Shown piece after piece: positions 2,052 through 40,760 of a stretch of 64,000 bases of DNA. The translations under genes and the position numbers were made by a program. The stretch covers positions 780,001 through 844,000 of the forward strand of contig NZ_CP136419.1 in assembly GCF_039233145.1 (NCBI RefSeq), given 5' to 3'. The stretch comes from Moorella humiferrea. Its GTDB lineage: Bacteria > Bacillota > DSM-521 > Neomoorellales > Neomoorellaceae. The notes beneath the pieces are model-generated. The model did not search any database and was not told the DNA's origin. It was given only the letters and a program-made list of their open reading frames with translations. Position 1 is the first letter of the stretch, and each line of letters starts with the position of its first letter.

Positions 2052-2196
2052 ACTCCGGGCGTCAAGGGCAAGCTCCCCGAAAGGGGATGCGCGCAAAGCC
2101 ATGGGTCTAAGGTCCGTGTCGCGCGGGGGTGGCGGTCCGGCAGGGCCTTTAACCTCCGGCGGACGGGCTATGACAGCCAGGCCGCCGTTCCCGGTT
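2052..2196 (+). promoter_or_regulatory. Cyclic di-GMP class I (GEMM) riboswitch aptamer
   Basis: The leader contains the GEMM hallmarks in order: AAGGGCAA, a GC hairpin capped by a GAAA tetraloop (2075-2086), GCGCAAAGCC, GGGTCTAAGG, then after an insert CTATGACAGCCAGGC. A closing helix pairs 2055-2059 (CCGGG) with 2190-2194 (CCCGG). A P3-type helix pairs 2112-2116 (GTCCG) with 2160-2164 (CGGAC) and encloses an extra GC-rich hairpin, so P3 is longer than usual. GEMM riboswitches upstream of flgB operons are established (for example in Clostridioides difficile). Here the aptamer sits 155 bases before flgB and should control the whole fla operon. Confidence 0.8.
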
Positions 2197-15582: not shown

Positions 15583-16347
15583 ATGGACTACTTCAAAGGG
15601 GCGGAAGCCTTTTTACTGGTGCTGGTGCGGTCTACCTCCTTTTTCATAACGGCGCCATTTTTGGGCGTTCGCAGCGTACCGGCCCCGTTAAAGGCGGCCC
15701 TAGGGGTGCTGGTGGCCTTCCTCCTTTTTCCGACGCTGCCGGGAGATTATGCGGCGTATAGCGGCGGGGCCTTTGCCCTGGCCGTAGTGAACGAGGCCCT
15801 GGCCGGTCTGGCCCTAGGGTATCTGGCCAGCCTCATTTTCAGCGCCGTCCAGGTGGCCGGCCAGCTTTTAGATCTGAATATGGGCCTGGGGATGGCCAAC
15901 CTCCTGGATCCCCAGACCGCCTACTCCACCACCGTCCTGGGGCAGTTCTTTAACATCCTGGCCCTGCTCCTCTTTTTCCAGATGGACGGCCACCACACCG
16001 TGCTTTTGGCCCTGCAGGAGAGTTTTCGCCTTCTGCCTCTGGGAGGGGTGGGATTTGACGGGAGTATCATTCTGGCGGTGGTGAGGCTTTTTAGCGGCAT
16101 GTTCAGCCTGGCGGTAAGAATCGCTTCTCCCGTTATCGCTGTCCTTTTCATTGCCGATTTGACTTTAAGTCTCATCGCCCGCACCGTGCCCCAGCTGAAC
16201 GTTTTCATCCTGGGTTTTCCTTTAAAAATCGGCCTGGGCCTTCTGATTTTAATCGCCGTTCTGCCCATGCTGGCGACGGTCTGCGCCAACCTCTTCAGCC
16301 AGATGGAACACGACCTGGCCCTGATCCTAAGGAGCTGGCCGCGGTGA
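15583..16347 (+). CDS. fliR: Flagellar export gate protein FliR
   Basis: 254 residues with about six membrane helices and the FliR blocks '[22 protein letters not shown]' and '[28 protein letters not shown]'. It completes the FliPQR pore. The stop overlaps the flhB start (GTGA). Confidence 0.95.
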
Positions 16348-17423
16348 TAGGCCTAGGGATTAACCTCCAGCTCTTTGCCGAAGAGAAAACCGAGGAAGCA
16401 ACCCCCCACCGGCTCCAGGAAGTGCGCCGCAGGGGGCAGGCGGCCCGGAGCAACGACCTGACCGCCGCCCTGGTGCTCCTGGCCGTAATCCTTTACCTCT
16501 ATTGGCGGCGGCAGGCCTTTTACTTAAAGATGGCCGACCTTATGACTCATACCCTGGGGGAAGGCCTCAAGGAGAACCTGGATGTGGGGGCATTGATGGC
16601 CGTATTCTACCACCAGGCGGTAGAAATCGGCCTCCTCCTGGCTCCCGTCCTCCTGGTGGCGGCGGCGGTGGGCCTATTCGCCAATTTTGCCCAGGTGGGC
16701 TTCCTCTTTTCCCTGGACCCCATAATGCCGCGCCTGGAAAACCTGGACCCGGTTAAAGGGATGCAGCGCCTTTTCTCCCGTCGTGCCCTGATAGAGCTGG
16801 TGAAGAGCCTTTTCAAGGTAACGGCGGTGGGTTTCGTGGCCTGGGCCCTGGTTCGGGGTGAGTTAGACCGCCTGATAACGGTCGTCGATGCCGGGCTCCC
16901 CGCCGCCCTGGAAATGGTGGGGCGGCTCCTATACCGGGTGGGTCTGGGCGTGATGATCGTTTTCATTAGCCTCGCGGCGGTGGACTACCTGTTCCAGCGG
17001 CGCGAGTTCCAGCGCAGCATCCGCATGACCAGACAGGAAGTAAAAGAAGAATTGAAGCAAATGGAGGGCGACCCCCTGGTCCGGTCCCGCCTGCGGGAGA
17101 AGCAGCGGCGGCTGGCCCGGCACCGCATGATGCACGCCGTGCCGGAAGCCACGGTGGTCATCACCAACCCCGTTCACGTGGCCGTGGCCCTGCGCTACCG
17201 GGAAGGAGATAGGGCCCCGCGGGTGGTGGCCAAGGGGGCGGGGAGCATCGCCGAGCGTATTAAAGAAGTCGCCCGCCGCCACAACGTTCCCATCGTGGAA
17301 AACCCTCCGGTGGCCCGGGCATTGTACCGCCAGGTGGAGCTGGGCCAGGAAATACCGGTGGCCCTCTACCAGGCGGTGGCCGAGATCCTTGCCCAGATCT
17401 ACCGCCTGCGGGGAAGGATGTAG
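16344..17423 (+). CDS. flhB: Flagellar export specificity switch protein FlhB
   Basis: 359 residues. N-terminus '[26 protein letters not shown]' then four membrane helices and a cytoplasmic domain with '[28 protein letters not shown]'. The autocleavage site reads N275-P-V-H278 instead of the common NPTH, so the cleaving Asn-Pro bond and His are kept while Thr is Val. FlhB switches export from hook to filament substrates in response to FliK. A 261-base gap holding a structured repeat separates it from flhA. Confidence 0.95.
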
Positions 17424-17486: not shown

Positions 17487-17657
17487 GGCTGGCATTTGTT
17501 TGTAGTGAGCGACTTGGTCCGAGGGGCTAAGGATTGGAGCCGGCGGAGCAGGAAGCCTGTTCATTGGCAATCCGCAGGCGATGAGCAGCGGTCCGAACCG
17601 AGGCGTCGTCCTGTCGGCGCGCAGCTTTTGAGCGGCGCAGGGACATATCCCGACATA
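17487..17657 (+). repeat. Structured intergenic element, copy A (leader of flhA)
   Basis: The flhB-flhA gap (17424-17684) holds no gene. It shares with the leader at 39732-39992 a 13-base 5' motif (17487-17499, GGCTGGCATTTGT), an identical 21-base block (17560-17580) and a further 59-base block (17588-17646) differing at only six positions. The first block ends an imperfect hairpin (17540-17548 with 17571-17579), and the second contains the small hairpin CGGT-CCGA-ACCG. The element ends about 40 bases before the flhA start, on the coding strand. It matches no RNA family that I recognise. Confidence 0.7.
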
Positions 17658-17684: not shown

Positions 17685-19757
17685 ATGGCGGCAAATACCG
17701 GCCTGTTGGGCGTCTTAAGGCGCCTCAACCCCTATAACGACATCCTGGTGGCGGCCCTGGTCCTGGGGGTGGTAATGCTCATCGTCGTCCCCGTCAGCCC
17801 CCTGGTCATGGACATCCTCCTCGTCGTCAACATCGGCGTCAGCATGATCATCCTCCTGACCACCATGTTCGTCGGCCGCAGCCTGGATTTTTCCGTTTTT
17901 CCGTCCCTTTTGCTGGTCGTCACCCTTTTCCGCCTGTCGCTAAACATTTCCTCCACCCGCCTTATCTTAAGCCGGGCTGATGCCGGCCATGTCATCGAAA
18001 CCTTCGGCAGCTTCGTGGTGCGGGGCAACTATATCGTCGGTTTTATCATTTTTATTATCATTACCATTATCCAGTTTATCGTCATCACCAACGGCGCCCA
18101 GCGGGTGGCCGAAGTGGCGGCGCGCTTCACCCTGGACGCTATGCCCGGCAAGCAGATGAGCATCGACGCCGATCTCAACGCCGGCCTTTTGACCGAAGAG
18201 GAAGCCAGGGCCAAAAGGCGCGAGCTCCAGCGGGAAGCCGATTTTTACGGCGCCATGGACGGCGCCAGCAAGTTCGTCCGGGGCGACGCCGTGGCCAGCC
18301 TGATTATTGTGGCCATTAACATCGTGGGCGGGCTGGCCATCGGCATGTGGCAGCTGAAGATGCCTTTCATGGAAGCCCTGCAGACCTATACCCGCCTGAC
18401 CATCGGCGACGGCCTGGTGAGCCAGCTGCCGGCCCTTATGGTGTCCACCGGCACGGGCATCCTGGTGACCCGTTCCGGTTCCGTTGACAACTTCGGCAAA
18501 GAGGTAATAGCCCAGCTGACGGGCTTTCCCCGCATCGCCGCCCTGGTGGCCGCCATCCTTTTCCTCATGGGGCTTTTGCCGGGAATGCCCCATTTGACCT
18601 TTTTCATCCTGGCCGGCGGCACCGGGTACGCGGCCTATGCCCTGGCCCGGGAGGAAAAATTGGAGGGACGGCGCCGTGAGGAAAGGGCTGCCGCCCAGAA
18701 GACGGCGCCGCGCCAGCCGGAAAACGTCTTAAGCCTTTTTCAGGTGGACCCCCTGGAGGTGGAAATCGGCTACGGCCTTATCCCCCTGGCCGACGAAAGT
18801 GCGGGCGGAGATCTTTTGGACCGTCTGGCCGCCGTGCGGCGTCAGTGCGCCACCGAAATGGGCATTTATGTCAGGCCCATCCGCATCCGGGACAACCTGC
18901 AGCTGCCCCCCAACAGCTACATCTTTAAGTTGCGGGGCGTGGAAGCGGCGCGGGGCGAAATCCAACCGAACTATCTCCTGGCTATGAACCCCGCCGGCAG
19001 TGAGGGGCCGCCGGAGGGAATACCAACCAGGGAGCCTACCTTCGGCCTGCCGGCCTGGTGGGTGCCGGCGGCCAGGCGCCAGGAAGCGGAGCTGGCCGGG
19101 TTTACCGTGGTCGACGCCACTACTGTACTCATCACCCATCTTACGGAGTTTATCAAGGCCCATGCTGACGAACTCATGGGACGCCAGGAAACCCGGGAGC
19201 TTTTAGACAAGGTCAAGGAAACCAATCCGGCAGTGGTGGAAGAGCTGGTACCCAACCTTCTATCCGTCGGCGAGGTGCAGAAGGTGCTGGCCGGTCTTTT
19301 ACAGGAACAGGTGCCCATTCGCGACCTCGTCGGCATCCTGGAGGCCCTAGCCGACGCCGCCCGTACCAGCCGGGATCCCGACTACCTCCTGGGGGCGGCG
19401 CGTCAGGCCCTGAGTCGTACCATCAGCCGCCAGTACGCCCGGGACGGCAAAATTACCGCCGTCACCCTCCATCCCCAGCTGGAGCAGAGGGTGGCCGAGG
19501 CCGTCCAGCCGACCTCCCAGGGGGCTTTTCCGGCCCTGGGTCCGGAGGAGGCCCGGGAGCTCTTGAACAGGGTGGGCCGGGCCGTGGAAAAGGCGGCCGT
19601 CGGCGGCGTCCAGCCGGTGCTCTTATGCTCGGCCAGGGTTCGCCTGCCCCTGCGGCGGCTGCTTAAACGCTCTTTTCCTTACCTGCCGGTTCTGGCCTAT
19701 AACGAGCTGGAACCGGGGATGGAAGTTGAAGCCGTGGAGGCGGTGAACCTGGCATGA
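17685..19757 (+). CDS. flhA: Flagellar export gate protein FlhA
   Basis: 690 residues from ATG 17685 behind TTGGAGGAAATACAG. An in-frame extension back to 17436 would translate the repeat element and is rejected. Eight membrane helices fill the first 320 residues. The FHIPEP signature region 'TLFRLSLNISSTRLIL' is present, and the large cytoplasmic domain that forms the nonameric ring and docks chaperones follows. The stop overlaps flhF. Confidence 0.96.
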   Translation: MAANTGLLGVLRRLNPYNDILVAALVLGVVMLIVVPVSPLVMDILLVVNIGVSMIILLTTMFVGRSLDFSVFPSLLLVVTLFRLSLNISSTRLILSRADAGHVIETFGSFVVRGNYIVGFIIFIIITIIQFIVITNGAQRVAEVAARFTLDAMPGKQMSIDADLNAGLLTEEEARAKRRELQREADFYGAMDGASKFVRGDAVASLIIVAINIVGGLAIGMWQLKMPFMEALQTYTRLTIGDGLVSQLPALMVSTGTGILVTRSGSVDNFGKEVIAQLTGFPRIAALVAAILFLMGLLPGMPHLTFFILAGGTGYAAYALAREEKLEGRRREERAAAQKTAPRQPENVLSLFQVDPLEVEIGYGLIPLADESAGGDLLDRLAAVRRQCATEMGIYVRPIRIRDNLQLPPNSYIFKLRGVEAARGEIQPNYLLAMNPAGSEGPPEGIPTREPTFGLPAWWVPAARRQEAELAGFTVVDATTVLITHLTEFIKAHADELMGRQETRELLDKVKETNPAVVEELVPNLLSVGEVQKVLAGLLQEQVPIRDLVGILEALADAARTSRDPDYLLGAARQALSRTISRQYARDGKITAVTLHPQLEQRVAEAVQPTSQGAFPALGPEEARELLNRVGRAVEKAAVGGVQPVLLCSARVRLPLRRLLKRSFPYLPVLAYNELEPGMEVEAVEAVNLA

Positions 19758-37872: not shown

Positions 37873-38871
37873 ATGTTAAAGATCGCTAAAGATAAACTGC
37901 CGGAGCTCCTTAAGGCCTGGGCGATAAACGCTGCCGTTTTTGTGCCGCAAGAAAAGGGGGGGACGAGGGTTTTCCAGCCCTGGGACGGACAGCCCAGCCT
38001 TACCCTGGATGGCGGCAATACCCTGGAACCGCCCAAAGACTTATTCTTCCCCCGTACGGAAACCATGTACCGCTATGAAGTGCAGGGTAAGGAAGCCGGC
38101 GTAACGGAGATTCCCACCTTCGATGGGAAGATGGTGCTGGTAGGGGTTCGCTCCTGCGACGCCCGCAGTTTTTTAATCATGGACGACGTTTTTCTCACCA
38201 AAGGCTATGTCGATGAATTCTACCGCCGGCGGCGGGAAAATACCCGGGTAGTGGCCCTGGCCTGCACGCAAAACGCCCCCACCTGCTTTTGCACCTCCTT
38301 CGGCATCGACCCCGGACGGGCCGAAGGGGTAGACGTCCAGATGTGGCCGGTAGCAGACGGCTACCTGTTGGAACCAATAACGGCTGCCGGACGGGAACTC
38401 CTGGACCAGGCCGGGGAGCTTTTGACAGCAACTGATACCGCCCCACCGCCTGCGGCCGTACCGGGCCTCGTTGTAGATGTCACGGGTGTTACGGAAAAAC
38501 TGCAGGGGATGTTCGAACACCCCTACTGGACGGCCGTCAGCCGCAAGTGCCTAGGCTGTGGGGCCTGCACCTATCTTTGCCCCACCTGTCATTGCTTCGA
38601 CATCCAGGGTGAAAACCGGGGTAACAGCGGCTACAAGTTCCGCTGCTGGGACTCTTGCATGTTCTCGGAATACACCAGGATGGCCGGCGGCCACAACCCG
38701 CGGCCCTCGAAAAAGGAGCGTCTGCGCAACCGCTTCCTGCATAAGCTCCAATACTTCCCGGAACGGTACGGGAAATTTGCCTGCGTGGGCTGCGGACGCT
38801 GCCTGGACCGCTGCCCGGTAAATGTCGACATCACCCGGGTAATCCGTGAGGTCAAGGAGGTGGCCCTGTAA
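37873..38871 (+). CDS. flxB: FlxB-like iron-sulfur subunit (AsrA-type)
   Basis: 332 residues, ATG behind GAGGGAGGTGGG. It resembles anaerobic sulfite reductase subunit A and hydrogenase beta-like proteins: 'FPRTETMYRYEV', 'LVGVRSCDARSFLIMDDVFL', 'ALACTQNAPTCFCTSFG', then 'CLGCGACTYLCPTCHCF' and 'CVGCGRCLDRCPVN'. It carries electrons between FlxA and FlxC. The stop overlaps the flxA start (TAATG). Confidence 0.85.
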   Translation: MLKIAKDKLPELLKAWAINAAVFVPQEKGGTRVFQPWDGQPSLTLDGGNTLEPPKDLFFPRTETMYRYEVQGKEAGVTEIPTFDGKMVLVGVRSCDARSFLIMDDVFLTKGYVDEFYRRRRENTRVVALACTQNAPTCFCTSFGIDPGRAEGVDVQMWPVADGYLLEPITAAGRELLDQAGELLTATDTAPPPAAVPGLVVDVTGVTEKLQGMFEHPYWTAVSRKCLGCGACTYLCPTCHCFDIQGENRGNSGYKFRCWDSCMFSEYTRMAGGHNPRPSKKERLRNRFLHKLQYFPERYGKFACVGCGRCLDRCPVNVDITRVIREVKEVAL

Positions 38872-39698
38872 TGGCGGAAGCACCGGTCAACCCCCTGGTG
38901 CCCATGACGGGGCGCATCATTAAAATTGTGGAAGAAACCCCCGACGTTAAGACCTTCCACGTGACGACGGAGCAGGGCAAGCCCTTCACGCCTTTGCCGG
39001 GACAGCTGGCCATGCTTTCCCTCCTTGACGTGGGGGAAGCCATGTTCTCCATCACCTCCCAGGGTCCGGAACACCTGGAGCTGGCCATCAAAAGGGTGGG
39101 TATGCTCACCGACGCCCTCCATGAGGCTGAAGAAGGGCAGATGGTTGGCATCCGCGGTCCCTACGGCAACGGTTTCCCGGTGGAAGACCTCAAAGGCAAA
39201 GATATCCTCTTCATCGGCGGCGGCATCGGCCTGGCACCGGTGCGCTCTCTGATCAATTACTGCATCGAGCACCGGGAGGACTACGGCCACCTGTGGATCA
39301 TCTATGGCGCCCGTTCACCGGCCGACCTCTGTTTCAAGGACGACCTTTTCAACAACTGGCCCCGGGTGGAAAATTGCCGGGTGGACGTGACGGTGGACAA
39401 AGGCGACGCTACCTGGCAGGGTCATGAGGGCTTCGTGCCGGCCTTCGTGGAAGAGCTAAAACCGGACCCGGCGGGTAAAGTGGCCGTCACCTGCGGCCCA
39501 CCGATTATGATTAAATTTGTCCTCCAGTCCCTGGAGAAGCTGGGGTATAAGGACGACCAGATCATCACCACCCTGGAAATGCGCATGAAATGCGGCATCG
39601 GCAAGTGCGGCCGCTGTAACCTGGGAAGTAAATACGTCTGCCTGGACGGACCCGTCTTCACCCTGGCGCAGTTGAAGCAATTGCCGAATGAGTATTAA
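38871..39698 (+). CDS. flxA: FlxA-like FAD/NAD(P)H-binding oxidoreductase subunit
   Basis: 275 residues. FAD-binding barrel, then NAD-binding motif 'FIGGGIGLAPVRSLINYCI', 'IYGARSPADLCFKDDL', and a C-terminal [2Fe-2S] site C-x4-C-x2-C-x7-C ('KCGIGKCGRCNLG', then 'VC'). This is the PyrK/AsrB/FlxA class. It would accept electrons from NAD(P)H and is the entry or exit point of the Flx-Hdr complex. It is the last gene of the operon. Confidence 0.9.
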   Translation: MAEAPVNPLVPMTGRIIKIVEETPDVKTFHVTTEQGKPFTPLPGQLAMLSLLDVGEAMFSITSQGPEHLELAIKRVGMLTDALHEAEEGQMVGIRGPYGNGFPVEDLKGKDILFIGGGIGLAPVRSLINYCIEHREDYGHLWIIYGARSPADLCFKDDLFNNWPRVENCRVDVTVDKGDATWQGHEGFVPAFVEELKPDPAGKVAVTCGPPIMIKFVLQSLEKLGYKDDQIITTLEMRMKCGIGKCGRCNLGSKYVCLDGPVFTLAQLKQLPNEY

Positions 39699-39731: not shown

Positions 39732-39992
39732 GGCAGGCACATGTACCGGAGCCGTGAATAGCGGAGCGAAGGTCAAAAGGACAGGCGAGGTGAAGGATAC
39801 CGTTGCCGACGCTTAAGGCAAGCCTTGAGCACGCCTTTGAGAGGAGACAAAGGCCGACTCATAGAAAGATAAATGCCTGCGGAACCAGGAGCTTATTCAT
39901 TGGCAATCCGCAGGCGGCGTTGCAACGGTCCGAACCGAGCCGTCGTCCTGTCGGCGCGTAGCTTCTGAACGGCGAAGGGACATGGGCCTGCC
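39732..39992 (+). repeat. Structured intergenic element, long copy B (leader of PHP gene)
   Basis: The 309-base gap after flxA holds a 261-base element whose ends pair: 39732-39737 (GGCAGG) with 39987-39992, and 39740-39744 (CATGT) with 39980-39984. Inside are hairpins at 39833-39839/39848-39854 (GCCTTTG/CAAAGGC), 39875-39882/39908-39915 (GCCTGCGG/CCGCAGGC) and CGGT-CCGA-ACCG (from 39926). Blocks 39896-39916 and 39925-39983 match copy A (21 of 21 and 53 of 59 bases). It ends 15 bases before the next start codon. It could be a cis-acting RNA or a MITE-like repeat; I see no target duplication. Confidence 0.75.
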
Positions 39993-40007
39993 AAGAGGAG
40001 TTATACC

Positions 40008-40760
40008 ATGCCAGCAGACTACCATATCCACGGGCTGGCCCATGTGGGCCCGCCCCATACCGTAGAACGCCTTTTACCCTATGTAGAAGCGGCCAAAGCC
40101 GCGGGCCTTACGGAAATAGGCTTCGCCGACCACGACCGCTACCTGGAAGGGCTGGACTTTAACGTCTTTTCCGAACTAGAGCGGGTAACGGGGATGCCCG
40201 TCCGCGCCGGGCTGGAGATCGACTTCCGCCCGGAAAAAGACCACCGCCGGGAGCTGGCCGGACGTCCCTGGGATTATCTCATAGGTTCGGTCCATGCCAT
40301 CGGCAACTGGGATTTCGACCGTCCGGGACAGGAAGACGGTTTTAACGCCTGGGACATCGACGAGCTCTATACCGTTTATTTCAACCTGGTTGCCCAAGCG
40401 GCTTCAACCGGTCTTTTCCAGATTATCGGCCATCTGGACTTGATCAAAATTTACGGCCACCGGCCCCGTAAATCCGTGTTGACCCTGGCCGAGCCGGCCC
40501 TCAAGGCCGTAGCCGCCAGCGGCGCCGCATTGGAGGTCAATACAGCCGGCCTATTTAAGCCCGTGGGAGAAATTTATCCGGCCGCAGAAATTTTAGAGCG
40601 GGCCTTCAGCCTGAATATCCCCGTCACCATTGGTTCCGACGCCCACGCCCCCGGTGAAGTGGCCCGGGAAAGGGAGAGGGCGCGGCAGCTTCTGCGCCGC
40701 ATCGGCTACACCAGCCTGGCCACTTTTGCGCGCGGGGTTATGGCGACCGAATCGTTATAA
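40008..40760 (+). CDS. PHP-domain phosphatase, histidinol-phosphatase-like
   Basis: 250 residues. Metal-binding PHP motifs are in order: 'DYHIHGLAHVG', 'GFADHDRYLEG', 'RAGLEIDF', 'YLIGSVHAIGNWDFD', 'IIGHLDLIKIYG' and 'TIGSDAHAPGEV'. The spacing resembles HisK/HisJ-type histidinol-phosphate phosphatase, though other phosphoesterase substrates are possible. No other his genes are nearby. ATG 40008 follows AGAGGAG and the structured repeat. Confidence 0.82.
   Translation: MPADYHIHGLAHVGPPHTVERLLPYVEAAKAAGLTEIGFADHDRYLEGLDFNVFSELERVTGMPVRAGLEIDFRPEKDHRRELAGRPWDYLIGSVHAIGNWDFDRPGQEDGFNAWDIDELYTVYFNLVAQAASTGLFQIIGHLDLIKIYGHRPRKSVLTLAEPALKAVAASGAALEVNTAGLFKPVGEIYPAAEILERAFSLNIPVTIGSDAHAPGEVARERERARQLLRRIGYTSLATFARGVMATESL

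Follow-up and report, generated by a model that had tools for sequence, protein, structure and literature searches.

The window analyzed here is the 64-kb stretch at positions 780001 to 844000 (forward strand) of the 2.67-Mb single-contig genome of Moorella humiferrea (G000), the host genome. Ten other Moorella genomes (G001 to G010) were included, giving 11 in the comparison. Two intergenic gaps, the one between flhB and flhA and the one upstream of a PHP-domain gene (the PHP gap), contain related sequences, referred to here as copies A and B (Table 1). Neither gap showed a promoter or a terminator when scanned for them. A c-di-GMP-I riboswitch (Rfam RF01051, 53.3 bits) is located at window positions 2057-2189 (+), 5' of the flagellar gene region.

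Table 1. Features of the two gaps and their neighbouring genes, in window positions
Feature	Position	Strand	Remarks
flhB	16344..17423	+	5' neighbour of copy A; Pfam PF01312, E 3e-125
Copy A, part 1: 5' terminus of F2 (GGCTGGCATTTGTTTG...)	17487..17526	+	37/40 identical to F2 at G000:861773-862023
Copy A, part 2: 3' half of F1	17529..17654	+	87% identical to the full F1 at G000:1055551
flhA	17685..19757	+	3' neighbour of copy A; Pfam PF00771, E 4e-271; ATG at 17685
NAD-binding/DHODB-type iron-sulphur oxidoreductase subunit	38871..39698	+	5' neighbour of copy B; Pfam PF00175, PF10418
Copy B, full F1	39732..39992	+	75.5% identical to F1 at G000:1055551; row 1 of the 33-copy alignment
Copy B closing helix, 5' arm (GGCAGGCACATGTACC)	39732..39747	+	pairs with 39977-39992; alignment columns 11-24/262-275
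Copy B closing helix, 3' arm (GGGACATGGGCCTGCC)	39977..39992	+	pairs with 39732-39747; alignment columns 11-24/262-275
PHP-domain gene	40008..40760	+	3' neighbour of copy B; Pfam PF02811, E 1.5e-17; ATG at 40008

The two copies were 90% identical over 62 nt (17585-17646 versus 39922-39983) and 83% identical over 42 nt (17539-17580 versus 39875-39916), the shorter block including an identical stretch of 21 nt, TTCATTGGCAATCCGCAGGCG. In a genome-wide comparison, the match between them had an E value of 2.7e-27, which far exceeds chance. An earlier note on this DNA had reported such shared blocks, lying in the same order and orientation and shortly followed by a start codon in each gap, and the alignment and the positions of the two ATG codons agreed with that description. 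It had also reported a common 13-base motif at the 5' ends, but the two sequences were found to lack homology. The one in copy A, GGCTGGCATTTGT, forms the end of a repeat from a second family, F2, whereas GGCAGGCACATGT in copy B is the 5' arm of F1 itself. The likeness of the two motifs is therefore a coincidence. Copy A is a chimera in which the 5' end of F2 is joined, from 17529, to the 3' half of F1, and its F1 part aligns with the full F1 that G009 and G003 each carry between flhB and flhA. It has no closing helix because the 5' half of F1 was lost. When folded, the full F1 at G000:1055551 gave a z score of -8.7, and copy B (39740-40000, without its first 8 nt) gave -4.3, with the closing helix and internal hairpins that the note had described. 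Copy A alone gave -1.35, and 19 of 200 shuffled sequences folded as well as it did, so that no stable fold is left.

F1 consists of a core of about 237 nt (about 231 to 238 nt across copies) with complementary arms of about 8 to 16 nt. Within the arms, the inner part (ATGTCCC/GGGACAT) is conserved, and the outer parts vary by locus and covary. Three intact copies besides copy B are present in G000. With the full copy at 1055551-1055831 as the query, intact F1 was detected at 928813, 2445210, and 819741 (copy B), and damaged F1 was detected at 797529 (copy A), 2180310-2180474, 861611-862140, 2419082, and 949307. At least seven further places in G000 therefore hold F1 or pieces of it, and its occurrence before both flhA and the PHP gene, which the note took for a leader common to the two, is incidental. 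We collected and aligned 33 distinct, near-full copies, dispersed as those of a miniature inverted-repeat transposable element (MITE) are. Like MITEs, F1 is short (<600 bp) and non-coding; no conserved peptide was found in it, and no reading frame was open across all copies. BLAST searches of 61 genomes detected F1 in 10 of the 11 from Moorella and in no genome of the remaining 50. When 84,980 species genomes were scanned for the F1 sequence pattern, the only hits were Moorella mulderi, M. stamsii, and a single Clostridia bin, and no F1 was found in viral contigs by the pattern scan or in phage and plasmid collections by BLAST. The Rfam search yielded no F1 match at the gathering threshold and nothing credible at permissive thresholds, in agreement with the earlier remark that no known riboswitch or RNA family fits. 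Assignment to a riboswitch or dedicated leader class was considered and rejected: the copies do not show the always-sense association with related downstream genes, and no aptamer or RNA family matched. Nothing relevant on Moorella repeats or MITEs was found in the literature searched, and F1 appears to be uncatalogued as a repeat family.

Two other dispersed families occupy similar places. F2 is present at about ten further places in G000 besides copy A, and its range is wider than that of F1 (20 of the 61 genomes). At G000:C1:861611-862140 (L171:112-641), F2 is nested within a split F1; this nest adjoins an apparent sigma-factor gene. The third family, F3, is about 310 nt long (for example, L148:90-407, which is G010:C1:924919-925236). 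It had at least 55 matches in G010, where 40 of 177 candidates were scored, and 42 to 44 matches in G005 and G006. The sequence GCGACTTGGTNCGAG is common to F3 and F2. An element-borne ribosome-binding-site motif, TATTTTCGGAGGA, has four exact occurrences in G000, including G000:C1:1168737, 2168455, and 2397888, and at least two of these occurrences adjoin F2 copies. By a hand count that assumed an origin near position 1, 28 of 35 F3 copies in G010 lie on the presumed leading strand. At 20 F3 loci examined in the same genome, 17 copies were in the sense orientation relative to the downstream gene, including four of the seven on the lagging strand. As to replication-strand versus transcription bias, these counts are suggestive only.

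Next, the orthologous gaps were compared across the genus; some sites are referred to by working labels (uvrC, arg, sig, and ecf) taken from neighbouring sequence. The flhB-flhA gap contains F1 in G002, G003, and G009 (a full copy in the last two), F3 in G010, a solo palindrome beside a piece of F3 in G001, another sequence in G007, and none of the three families in G004, G005, G006, and G008. In the PHP gap, F1 is in the sense orientation in G000 and antisense in G002 and G009, F2 is present in G001 and G004, and F3 is present in G005, G010, and probably G006. This gap is empty, with about 12 nt between the genes, in G003, G007, and G008. The uvrC gap holds F1 in G003 and F2 in G001. It is cleanly empty in G002, G009, and G004, where the sequence reads straight through the insertion point of F1 and F2 and contains no palindrome. 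The filled uvrC site has extra non-core sequence beside F1, about 65 nt on the left and 25 nt on the right, and with such flanks present no clean target-site duplication could be defined in the filled/empty pairs. The sister genomes G002 and G003 are 97% alike at the fourfold sites of flhA, and their F1 copies in the flhB-flhA gap are 78% alike; this gap has therefore been refilled. Thus, insertion is polymorphic between orthologous gaps at the flh, PHP, rib, and uvrC sites and others, as is the case for MITEs.

The orientation of F1 also differs between species. The arms and 40-nt flanks of the arg site have the same orientation in G000 and G009 (score of 35 in the same orientation versus 3 when flipped), whereas the core is reversed (185 flipped versus 28 in the same orientation). 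Therefore, the core was inverted in place. Species also differ at the sig site, where the core is reversed along with about 20 to 40 nt of its flank (flank score of 32 versus 13). Both orientations are found at the rib, PHP, and ecf sites as well, with flanks too diverged to separate inversion from re-insertion. Decayed forms include 5' truncations such as copy A, internal deletions, and solo palindromes, the last consisting of GGTGGGGATATGTCCCCACC or its CATA mirror. The solo 20-nt GGTGGGGATATGTCCCCACC without a core, in most cases with the extended flanks of F1, was seen at L139:204-223 (G001), L257, L278, L255, L260, and L269. Both core inversion and the formation of solo palindromes could proceed via the arms, by template switching or recombination at the hairpin base, at 4-nt direct repeats (TCCC/GGGA).

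Some further observations were made at individual loci. In L235 (G009) and L239 (G004), the upstream gene is joined at its end to a truncated F1 remnant, and a TAG within this remnant (GTAGTCC) apparently closes the reading frame of that gene. In G009, a gene for an IS110-family transposase (PF01548, PF02371; L052:1750-3270) adjoins a hairpin, AGCCCCCCATGGGGGCT. L062, from the same genome, has the same start of the flank after the F1 site as L052, as if the AGCCCCCCATGGGGGCT hairpin were the target of this transposase. It is the one transposase encountered, and it does no more than adjoin F1 sites.

To what extent pairing is maintained was assessed with the alignment. The RNAalifold consensus has 57 pairs, 14 of them with double changes. 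When counted over the named structure, 97.2% of the cells were paired, versus 93.5% in shuffles and 32 to 45% in slid controls. Double changes were observed in 76 cells, versus 18.5 in shuffles. Covariation was found in 10 of the 14 pairs of the closing helix, also between copies at one and the same site: the arms at ribA-ribH are GGCAGGG/CCCTGCC in G000 versus GGTAGGG/CCCTACC in G001, and those at sig are GGAGG/CCTCC in G000 versus GGTGG/CCACC in G003. Among 1,714 cells of the long helices, the 31 G·U pairs were not in excess of the 25 A·C; two short helices, which do rest on G·U, were left out of this count. Therefore, selection on RNA is indistinguishable here from correction of the arms at the DNA level. 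Small inversions at hairpins are well known in plastid genomes. It is quite possible, if a little short of an even chance, that the covariation arose in this way, by template switching between the inverted arms as in the core flips, rather than by selection on a folded molecule. The equal rarity of G·U and A·C, the core inversions and solo palindromes, which show the arms interacting at the DNA level, and the plastid precedent all favour such correction. However, double changes were also seen in internal pairs, such as columns 81/209, 58/231, and 85/203, although they may represent a few subfamily events. Correction of this kind would account for the covariation alone and does not conflict with F1 being a MITE-like repeat.

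The genomic context of 30 copies was determined from coding-bias gene calls. Twenty-eight of them lie between co-directional genes, 21 in the sense and 7 in the antisense orientation; by site and orientation, with later sites counted, the ratio was about 17 sense to 5 antisense. In the ribA-ribH gap of G000, F1 is antisense. Many recent copies have identical arms and a 3' flank that ends with CTATTTTCGGAGGAG, about 35 nt past the arm and directly before a start codon, and they seem to bring their own ribosome-binding site. At ribA-ribH, the F1 core is 88% identical, versus 53% at fourfold sites. The flh copies of G003 and G009 are 94% identical versus 93%/90% at fourfold sites, and the PHP copies are 95% identical versus 98%, so F1 at these two places evolves like fourfold sites. 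A role in mRNA is therefore possible but not general.

These data bear on the view that F1 acts as a generic structured element of mRNA, for processing or stability, which arrived as a mobile sequence, is under selection in any operon that contains it, and was kept as its hairpin separates or protects cistrons. In its favour are the predominance of co-directional and sense positions, the covariation of the closing helix with its excess of double changes and compensatory arms at ribA-ribH and sig, and the conservation of the ribA-ribH core. The bcr1-bcr3 repeats of Bacillus cereus, often transcribed in untranslated regions and operon gaps according to a study of that group (PMC3446304), provide a parallel. 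However, the pairing lacks a clear RNA-strand signature, F1 in the flh and PHP gaps follows the fourfold sites, and its frequent loss, truncation, and inversion speak against a strong requirement. Overall, we consider this view rather unlikely. In favour of a conserved, riboswitch-like leader coordinating flhA with the PHP gene, one 64-kb window contains two stretches that are similar, structured, and alike in orientation, each closely followed by a start codon. Yet copies adjoin many unrelated genes in both orientations, F1 is absent or inverted before flhA and the PHP gene in relatives, copy A has no closing helix, and Rfam offers no match, making such a leader extremely improbable.

The conserved part of F1 often ends at TATGTCCC...GGGACATA, outside which the complementary arms are locus specific. 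This arrangement, like the solo palindromes in relatives, could reflect mariner/IS630-like transposition into the central TA of palindromes that already existed, the arms being target sequence. But the empty uvrC sites of three species contain no palindrome, copies at the same site alter both arms together, and the solo forms retain TATG or CATA because of the 4-nt direct repeats inside the arms; we regard transposition into palindromes as highly improbable.

Taken together, the F1 copies very probably represent a non-coding, hairpin-forming interspersed repeat of Moorella with the behaviour of a MITE-type non-autonomous element, copy A being a decayed copy with an F2 end and copy B a full one. 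We favour the MITE-like reading because the gaps are polymorphic, F2 is nested in F1, the core has been flipped, and solo palindromes and truncations are common. Of the two readings proposed in the earlier note, that of a mobile non-coding repeat is upheld by the copy number, polymorphic sites, nesting, inversion, and decay, whereas that of a cis-regulatory leader tying expression of the export gate to some other process is contradicted by the absence, replacement, or inversion of F1 in relatives. The signs of a MITE named in that note were borne out as to the occurrence of both orientations; target-site duplication was not demonstrated. Counting against a MITE is that the outer arms are not of fixed sequence, which is unusual for terminal inverted repeats recognized by a transposase. 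Likewise, no autonomous transposon with these arms, and no transposase that would mobilize F1, came to light among the loci inspected. F1 would have spread through a transposase acting in trans and, where it lies inside an operon, would be carried in the mRNA as a stable hairpin spacer. Such a spacer may affect the expression of flanking genes, but it is no sensor dedicated to flhA or the PHP gene. F1 is most likely a passenger hairpin in operon gaps, and nothing connects it to flagellar export. The sense bias and the conservation at ribA-ribH are, nevertheless, more than a neutral relic need show. A bolder idea, which we find quite improbable, is that F1, F2, and F3 form a guild of modular, invertible intercistronic hairpins moved and flipped by a dedicated enzyme. 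In the sense orientation, and in some cases with a ribosome-binding site borne by the element, they would tune the ratio of the cistrons of an operon. If so, swappable parts would dominate the operon gaps of Moorella.

These results end a false lead, as the flhA and PHP "leaders" are not to be studied as a common regulator. They document a genus-wide, apparently uncatalogued repeat in orthologous empty, filled, inverted, and decayed states, which make the spread, flipping, and role gain of small hairpin repeats in operons testable, and they give annotators a means to mask such gaps in Moorella, an acetogen genus.

In prokaryotic MITEs such as Correia/NEMIS of Neisseria and the pneumococcal RUP, the terminal repeats are of fixed sequence and a TA target is duplicated in a defined way; in contrast, the arms of F1 vary by locus, and a clean target duplication was not found in its filled/empty pairs. 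F1 resembles these MITEs (reviewed in PMC10969869) in being short, non-coding, intergenic, and polymorphic between relatives, with inverted ends. Families of stem-loop sequences, catalogued in 40 bacterial genomes (PMC2267715), are likewise repeated intergenic sequences with a common fold; Moorella is unmentioned in the main text of that catalogue. In style, F1 seems nearest to bcr1-bcr18 of the B. cereus group. According to PMC3446304, bcr1-bcr3 are called MITE-like and are often part of untranslated regions or operon gaps, some bcr repeats fold conservedly, and, as in Moorella, one lineage harbours several unrelated, genus-limited families of intergenic non-coding repeats. F1 differs in being longer than bcr1, in forming a single long rod that variable arms close, and in its inversion in place, and it has no known sequence link to these repeats. 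F1 is a new family of a known kind, that of interspersed, structured, MITE-like intergenic repeats.
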